Shown: in pieces, positions 5,163 to 6,715 of the stretch | Layout: the number at the start of each line of letters is the position of its first letter | Position numbering within the stretch: the first letter of the stretch is position 1 | Source: Candidatus Desantisiibacteriota bacterium | Lineage (GTDB): Bacteria > JACRDZ01 | DNA: 7,227 nt | Assembly: GCA_016209155.1 (NCBI GenBank) | Contig: JACQWU010000266.1 | Coordinates: 1 to 7,227, forward strand | Direction: 5' to 3' | Made by a program: the position numbers and the translations under genes | Notes under the pieces: model-generated | What the model saw: only the letters and a program-made list of their open reading frames with translations | Database searches by the model: none | Told to the model about the DNA's origin: nothing

Positions 5163-6023
5163 TTATAGGTTTTCCAGGATGCCGACTACGTAGGTGTACT
5201 TTCTTTTGGGATTATCGAAGTTTTTCTTTTTTACTATTTCAAATGCTTCTTTGATTTTTGTTTCGCCGTATTGTTTTGTTTTTAGGATGATGTCTTTGAT
5301 CACTTCCGGATTGTATTCTTCAAATACTATTTCGGCATACACCAGAGCTTTTTTATATTCAGGGGTTCCGTGTTTTTTTTCTATTTCGGTTAAAGTATTC
5401 AGTAATTTTTCAAAATCATATGGTTGAAGGACTTTATATGTTTTGGGTAATCTATCTTGAAAATTGTTATCCAGGTCATCATATCTCACTTCTATAAGAT
5501 TTTTTCTGTGAAGTTCATCCATGCCTTTTGCTATAACATCGCGGCCGATATTTCCAAATTGCGCTCTTATGTTTTCTACGTTTTTGGACCAAAACGGCTG
5601 GTTATCGCTTTGGGCGGCATTTACGAGATTTATTAAATAACAGAATTTCGCTCTCATTGATAAGGTTTTGTTCCATCCGAATTTGAAATAATCAATAGGA
5701 AGTTCAAAATATTCATTGTCTTCATCTTCGTCAGATTTTTCGGGATCAATCAGGGTGATAACAGCATCTTTGGCATATTCCGGTTTAAATTTGATTATTT
5801 TATATTCGTCTTGAAGTTTCGTTAATACTTTTATTATCTGCCTGCGATAAGCGGTTCTATCCATTTGTTTGTTAATGCCAAGGTATTGCGCGGCGCTGTC
5901 ATAATTAAAATTTAATTTTTTCTGCCCGCTATCATCTGATTCTTTGAGCAAAAATAAATATATGTCAAATGCTCTTTCATCACTTTGTTTTACCATTTCC
6001 GGTACGAATTTTGATGTTTCCAT
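5163..6023 (-). pseudogene. C-terminal domain of a phospholipase D-like protein, now separated from its N-terminus
   Basis: About 286 residues are open from ATG 6023 (a TTG start at 6044 would give 293). Two winged-helix-like stretches are visible: FVPEMVKQSDERAFDIYLFL through AYRRQIIKVLTKLQDEYKI, and FELPIDYFKFGWNKTLSMRA through DVIAKGMDELHRKNLIEVRY. I recall this C-terminal module following a phospholipase D (HKD) domain in secreted proteins of environmental bacteria. Here no HxKxxxxD motif exists and the matching N-terminal part lies just upstream in a different frame (6030-6204), as an internal deletion would leave. No ribosome site precedes 6023. The open frame is long and undamaged, so the deletion is recent or the domain is still translated. 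A plasmid-type Rep protein was the alternative, because of the winged-helix look. Confidence 0.6.
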
Positions 6024-6029
6024 AAACAA

Positions 6030-6204
6030 TGATAAACATAGCAATTGTTATGGATTCTTTTGCGCCTGCAATTAGCTTTTTTACTTCAGGGAAATATTTA
6101 TCTCCGCTTATATCTGTTACTTCGGCTTGATAGGATAATACATGTCCGGTTATTGTGAAAATTAATAGCAATGTAAGGGTAAAATTCATTATTTTTTTAT
6201 TCAT
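6030..6204 (-). pseudogene. N-terminus of a secreted phospholipase D-like protein (signal peptide and first strand-helix)
   Basis: The frame from ATG 6204 encodes a signal peptide (positively charged MNKK, hydrophobic FTLTLLLIFTITG, cleavage near LSYQA, residues 21-26). It continues as AEVTDISGDKYFPEVKKLIA and GAKESITIAMFIIVY (27-61), the opening of phospholipase D-like nuclease/lipase domains: a loop, the YFPEVKKLIAGAKESI helix, then the strand AMFII. It then runs out of frame and stops at 5980 without any HKD motif. The remaining catalytic core is missing and the C-terminal domain follows in another phase, so about one PLD domain has been deleted at roughly 6030-6045. The intact protein would have acted outside the cytoplasmic membrane. 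Confidence 0.6.
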
Positions 6205-6214
6205 TTTTGGGTTA

Positions 6215-6232
6215 AATCCTGTTAATCCTGTC
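6215..6232. repeat. Tandem 9-bp repeat AATCCTGTT/AATCCTGTC
   Basis: Two adjacent 9-mers differing only in the last base lie between the divergent PLD-like and metY-like remnants (6215-6223 and 6224-6232). I have the impression that this doublet is a common dispersed intergenic sequence in some environmental genomes; within this window it occurs once. Confidence 0.4.
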
Positions 6233-6268
6233 AGATATGTTTTTAAACAATAATTTATTGCTTATATT

Positions 6269-6469
6269 TTGTCAAAAAATTTCAGTTCAATAGGCGGGGT
6301 TATTGTTGATTCCGGAAAATTTGATTGGACCGGAGGAAAATTTCCATTGATATCCGAGCCTGAACCGAGTTATCCCGGAGTAACACCGGATTTTGTACGG
6401 CTGTCAATCGGGATAGAACACATTGACGATATCATTTCCGATATCGAACAGGCATTAATAAAAGTATAA
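6269..6469 (+). pseudogene. metY: O-acetylhomoserine sulfhydrylase remnant, N-terminus and middle lost
   Basis: Two pieces of MetY (O-acetylhomoserine aminocarboxypropyltransferase, PLP-dependent, making homocysteine from O-acetylhomoserine and sulfide) are fused in frame. [20 protein letters not shown] and the following EPEPSYPGV correspond to the middle of the enzyme, directly after the PLP-lysine loop. [20 protein letters not shown], then IEQALIKV, is the extreme C-terminus. The usual protein is about 430 residues; here only about 60 homologous residues remain. About 200 N-terminal residues, including the PLP lysine (SATK), and about 170 between the pieces are gone. The junction falls near 6380 (CCCGGAGT). 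The frame opens with a TTG at 6269 that is not a native start. It is followed after 14 bases by the cysK remnant, which keeps its own ribosome site, so this was a metY-cysK operon. Confidence 0.88.
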
Positions 6470-6483
6470 AAAGGAGATTTTTT

Positions 6484-6715
6484 ATGGCAAAAATATTTGC
6501 TGATATAACTAAAATAATTCAGTAATGAAGATTCCGGAGAAACAGCGCGGCGTCTCGCGCATCCCGAAGGAATACTTGCGGGAATTTCAAGCGGCGCCGC
6601 AGTGTGGGCCGCGCTGGAAGTTGCCAGGCGAAAAGAAAATAAAGGAAAGATTATTGTGGCAGTCCTTCCTGATACAGGTGAAAGGTATCTTACTACCTGG
6701 AAGGTTTATATATGA
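6484..6715 (+). pseudogene. cysK: Cysteine synthase remnant with internal deletion
   Basis: ATG 6484, with AAGGAG at 6471-6476, opens [12 protein letters not shown], the normal first 12 residues of CysK (O-acetylserine sulfhydrylase). It then meets TAA at 6523-6525. From 6518 a different frame carries the CysK C-terminus: [20 protein letters not shown], then [17 protein letters not shown], then [17 protein letters not shown], ending at TGA 6713-6715. About 230 residues of a roughly 305-residue enzyme are missing, including the PLP lysine. The final residues KVYI are atypical (usually TTWLF), so the 3' junction may also be altered. GC content is about 63% over 6541-6600 by hand count, against 25% over 6721-6780. 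The remnant is not functional; with metY it marks a lost sulfur-assimilation operon. Confidence 0.93.

Follow-up and report, generated by a model that had tools for sequence, protein, structure and literature searches.

Remnants of a PLD-like gene and a metY-cysK operon beside an integron integrase in a draft genome of Candidatus Desantisiibacteriota

The locus described here raises the question of how three adjacent genes, namely, a PLD-like gene, metY and cysK, each came to lack a large part of their sequence. The window, i.e., the whole stretch of DNA analysed, is a complete contig (C206) of 7,227 bases from a draft genome (G000; 3.08 Mb in 352 contigs, 79% complete), and the relatives searched include only three further genomes of the same phylum. 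A preliminary description of the window noted that these three neighbours have lost segments, and this is confirmed by matches to intact relatives and to TIGR01326. Judged by sequence comparison, the remnants are genuine homology matches, and they have the makeup of pseudogenes, in that clear homology to intact genes is combined with missing segments that destroy the gene. The pieces are the following:

5163..6026, minus strand: C-terminal domain of the PLD-like gene, ~288 codons, in a frame different from that of the N-terminal piece; 39-40% identical to a protein encoded on contig C289
6024..6030, no strand: junction in the PLD-like gene, exact base uncertain; ~146 residues with the HKD nuclease motif/domain are absent
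6025..6204, minus strand: first 60 codons of the PLD-like gene, which encode the signal peptide and the beginning of the PLD domain; aligned with the N-termini of ~500-amino-acid relatives in G000 and G003
6284..6374, plus strand: first piece of metY, TIGR01326 positions ~210-242; the first ~207 codons, 5' of this piece, are gone
6375..6469, plus strand: second piece of metY, the final ~31 codons, near the C-terminal end of TIGR01326, in frame with the first piece
6484..6519, plus strand: first 12 codons of cysK with the ribosome site, starting 14 bases after the metY stop, identified by comparison with relatives
6521..6700, plus strand: tail piece of cysK, 60 codons, in a frame different from that of the start; E 1e-25, up to 87% identical to intact genes

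The internal loss in metY, measured against ten intact relatives, amounts to 149-153 codons and is exactly in frame; ~61 codons survive, so that ~85% of the codons are gone. The cysK gene lacks codons ~13-232, with loss of the frame, as well as the last few codons (break at 6700/6701), and retains 72 codons in total. The cysK tail keeps 10 of the 10 invariant columns, and the codon-position pattern of the window remnants resembles that of intact genes. No further point lesions, which are usual in older pseudogenes but not strictly required, are present in the remnants, a condition that both young deletions and an artefact could explain.

Intact metY followed by cysK is encoded in several Omnitrophota and other draft genomes (among loci L098-L151), a number of which share the short spacer and ribosome site of the window (TAAAAAGGAGATTTTTTATG). 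Thus, the earlier observation that intergenic spacing and a ribosome site are retained is borne out for the metY-cysK pair. The window has the same gene order as these genomes, and the same spacing and ribosome site as several of them, but keeps only few of the codons. Given this agreement in order, spacing and ribosome site, the window holds the remnant of an operon in place rather than captured pieces. In the same genome, contig C199 encodes cysK, metX and a metW-like gene in a row. The cysK relative on C199 is 82% identical at the DNA level across the tail, with its own 5' end missing at the contig start, and a further cysK relative, on C166, is 61% identical to the C199 protein. At positions 1-190 of C199 (locus L009), i.e., at the contig start, the 5' end of cysK is fused to an unrelated coding sequence on the opposite strand. 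The preliminary description had pointed to intact copies elsewhere as a sign of recent duplication of fragments; this applies in part to cysK, for which these two relatives exist, the one on C199 being truncated, whereas no close intact copy of metY or of the PLD-like gene was found elsewhere in the assembly. Nor were the missing middles detected on the other contigs of this assembly (79% complete).

The best reference for the PLD-like remnant is an intact relative of 494 amino acids from contig C289 of the window's genome; G003 also encodes relatives, of ~500 amino acids. Because the nearest intact relative is only ~40% identical, the join is placed only to within the interval 6024-6030. The C-terminal domain was matched in 3 of the 41 genomes searched; a first contig scan with this domain as the query detected no relative. 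There is no stop across the 288-289 codons of the C-terminal piece, and this stop-free stretch of 289 codons bounds neutral change since inactivation at about 6%. In two shorter relatives, from G001 and G003, the C-terminal domain comes immediately after a signal peptide, without PLD, so a PLD-less form exists in nature; the window copy differs from it in that its two pieces are out of frame. The intact relative on C289 (locus L054, 208-5346), in which the C-terminal domain shows a weak match to DnaD, is located near an MvaI/BcnI-type restriction-modification pair. In G003 the family has multiple copies, and one relative, on contig C17 (L014, ~750-1060), is apparently interrupted by ~300 bp of foreign sequence almost at the break of the window copy.

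The geometry of the losses is less uniform than originally described. The pattern of kept ends and deleted middles holds only for the PLD-like gene, given that metY also lost its 5' half and cysK its last codons, and in place of three matching breakpoints there are at least five. With respect to the junctions proposed earlier, at 6030, 6380 and 6518, the first is consistent with the PLD interval, whereas the other two shift to 6374/6375 in metY and 6519/6520 in cysK. The metY join is placed by the conserved codons SYHG on the left and ATGVTPDF on the right and involves 0-1 bp of shared sequence; at the cysK join, judged from relatives, at most 1 base is shared. The preliminary description proposed to look for microhomology at the junctions; alignment to relatives shows at most 1 bp at these two, and no motif is common to them. 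Short direct repeats flanking the lost segment, the mark of slippage deletion, are lacking at metY and cysK. Assembly collapse through k-mers or a long repeat is ruled out at both genes because the two sides of each join encode conserved peptides that are not related to each other, and no long repeat (none of at least about 20 bp) is shared between them. Hence the suggested assembly collapse fails in this narrow form at metY and cysK, although a broader assembly or library artefact, discussed below, is a serious rival.

In simulations, three random deletions of the observed sizes each fell inside a different one of the three adjacent genes in 15% of the cases; accordingly, the three-gene layout is not surprising. 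The preliminary description took this layout to suggest a specific deletion process, which is not needed because the geometry fits chance and the metY and cysK junctions have no common motif. A process that specifically removes gene middles in this lineage would be in line with the genome-wide recurrence of deletions accompanied by few other lesions (see below) and with resolvable junctions that are mostly near-blunt. However, apart from the chance layout, the losses follow no fixed pattern (the 5' half is gone in metY, the 3' end in cysK), and the sizes vary from 20 to ~660 bp with no common motif seen, so we regard such a process as very improbable.

The surroundings of the remnants include mobile-element and toxin genes and dispersed repeats:

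1981-2351 and 2680-3161, plus strand: HicA-type and ParE/RelE-type toxin genes, adjoining the integron integrase
3227-4516, plus strand: integron integrase (TIGR02249, E 3e-126, 421 bits against a cut-off of 265)
4662-5042, plus strand: Clan AA aspartic-protease-like gene with an in-frame TAG at ~4803
5080..5164, no strand: dispersed repeat containing a small palindrome (AGGAGTCGGCTCCT), located downstream of the remnant of the PLD-like gene; copies on C327, C12 and C78
6205..6260, no strand: dispersed repeat (TTAAATCCTGTTAATCCTGTCAG) located between the start of the PLD-like gene and the break in metY; two further copies on C327, others on C205 and C20
7099..7227, no strand: probable terminus of an IS66-like insertion sequence, reaching the contig end; 98% identical to C199:15718-15845

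The matching segment of C199 adjoins an ORF resembling the IS66-type small protein; the IS66 assignment was made by inspection only. The small ORF ahead of each of the two toxin genes is probably an antitoxin. The integrase carries an extra N-terminal stretch of ~108 residues, and fragments of it are also found at the ends of contigs C286 and C218. With the TIGR02249 integrase and the insertion sequence end nearby, the fragments might have been imported already broken, e.g., by the integron or an insertion sequence. This is highly unlikely given that the order, spacer and ribosome site of metY-cysK are kept, as in an operon decaying in place, and that a simple scan revealed no convincing attC site; on the latter ground, integron cassettes were rejected as the carrier.

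The window is not alone in this genome. A comparison of proteins from 800 kb of the same-phylum relative G003 with 83 contigs (788 kb) of the draft genome that contains the window provided 187 testable places; the resulting rate is rough because the sample covers about one-quarter of the assembly and the G003 proteins are a partial set. Frame-breaking net internal deletions of 20-344 bp were identified at six of the 187 places (seven initially, one of which turned out to be two separate genes):

nifS (C212, ~3060): -344
cysE (C199, ~3340): about -145
capD-like gene (C20, ~9402): -134
unnamed gene on C144: -71
DEAD-box helicase: -43
relA/spoT (C187, ~12030): -20

An additional deletion, of about 125 bases in trxB (C348, ~1585), emerged from the loci of named genomes. 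The reverse comparison yields 0 of 200 in G003 (P = 0.012), or 0 of 323 with the 123 places from named loci included (P = 0.002). Nonsense codons and frameshift lesions of 1-2 bases are nearly absent at the compared places, among which no frame-breaking deletions shorter than 20 bases were seen, and neither cysE nor trxB was detected in intact form in the remaining genome. Two of the first five hits in the genome-wide search, namely, a response regulator-HD protein that lacks GAF and an AAA ATPase that resembles ClpX, matched by an HslU-like query, were dropped as natural architectures, as was a later hit in which histidine kinase and response regulator are separate genes; broken aminoacyl-tRNA synthetases are partial matches near contig ends and are uninformative. 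Two further cases come with intact copies. On C235 (L193, 11759-15081), an EamA-like transporter gene (a label assigned by inspection only) is accompanied by a nearby copy, 91-96% identical, that lacks 388 bp, with ~1 bp of homology at the join, and on C199, a copy of a cysE-tail/ankyrin stretch has a deletion of 1,856 bp between 12-bp direct repeats (GGCGGGATTTAA). Such hollowing is therefore no peculiarity of the window locus.

These observations bear on the possibility that the genes are intact in the cells and that their ends were joined without the segments between them, through the joining of contigs, the closing of gaps, chimeric reads or a mixture of strains. Faulty joining of a draft genome would leave losses in other parts of the assembly as well, core genes and joined contigs included, and the likeness to misassembly and chimeric joins in metagenome drafts is apparent: frame-breaking losses affect core genes while point lesions are nearly absent, five of the six deletion events are on contigs with N-filled joints (P = 0.007), and the excess of deletions over G003 (six of 187, plus trxB, against none of 200) has the same direction. 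At the N joints on C20 (L231:1769), C334 (L270:4005) and C323 (L226:2316), Ns are placed between ends that overlap by 7-15 bases, and 31-106 Ns separate ends with overlaps of 10-15 bases, so that the gap sizes of the assembly are unreliable. The fusion of the cysK start on C199 to foreign sequence and the resemblance of the window remnants to genes under selection fit such an artefact as well. On the other side, the N joints that could be judged (from proteins, by eye) err by an excess of Ns, not by 100 or more missing bases. In the window, the junctions are free of Ns, the shared sequence at the two resolvable ones amounts to 0-1 bp, in contrast to overlapping ends, and the pieces bounded by them are only ~90-180 bp long; the missing middles are absent from the remaining assembly, though that is only 79% complete. 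On this balance, an artefact is a tentative but quite credible account.

The explanation that we favour, with a probability of roughly one-half, is deletional erosion of a redundant operon and a PLD-nuclease gene beside the integron integrase and the insertion sequence end. A redundant metY-cysK operon, which probably once included metX and metW as on C199, would have been stranded together with the PLD-nuclease gene beside the integron integrase, the toxin-antitoxin genes and the insertion sequence end. Several independent deletions in place, of ~0.4-0.7 kb each, would then erase the genes, with the ends joined illegitimately on the basis of almost no sequence homology. Redundancy may have relaxed selection on these genes, and the deletions would be present in the cells themselves. 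Several features argue for real deletions: the pieces of ~90-180 bp appear too short to be scaffolded contigs; the junctions have no N and, where resolvable, no overlap, and the missing middles are found nowhere else; deleted and intact copies occur on the same contig on C235 and C199; and the setting combines an integron integrase, toxin-antitoxin genes, an insertion sequence end and a neighbour gene with a stop codon. The lack of point decay in the remnants fits deletions that are young. Against deletional erosion, core genes are affected (relA/spoT, DEAD helicase, cysE and trxB), with no intact cysE or trxB, and nonsense and 1-2 base frameshift lesions are almost absent, unlike in Salmonella (PMC2916853). 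As for the joining machinery, no match to a Ku gene was detected in G000 (79% complete), whereas Ku is present in G003; loss of RecA is ruled out, given that RecA is intact. A lineage in which an unusually active homology-independent process produces near-blunt deletions of 20-700 bp that outpace point mutations and hollow even core genes would be a far-reaching reading, and a decidedly unlikely one.

Deletional bias and the loss of pseudogenes by deletion are established in bacteria (Kuo and Ochman 2010, PMC2916853), and the window resembles these cases in that genes that are not required shed sequence by deletion, here redundant copies near mobile elements. In Salmonella, 131 of 346 single-hit pseudogenes are due to point mutations, most pseudogenes have one lesion, and losses exceeding 20% of the length are seen in few of them (PMC2916853); the three neighbours in the window differ in that each lost ~30-85% and none shows point lesions. 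The losses are explained either by ordinary deletion of unused genes or by an error in the draft assembly, without the need for a new process. If they are not real, the draft genome gives false gene losses, core genes included, that would mislead any metabolic statement on this organism. If they are real, the window would represent the known deletional loss of pseudogenes in a heavier and denser form and would capture genes in the course of being erased next to an integron integrase, in a lineage that is uncultured.
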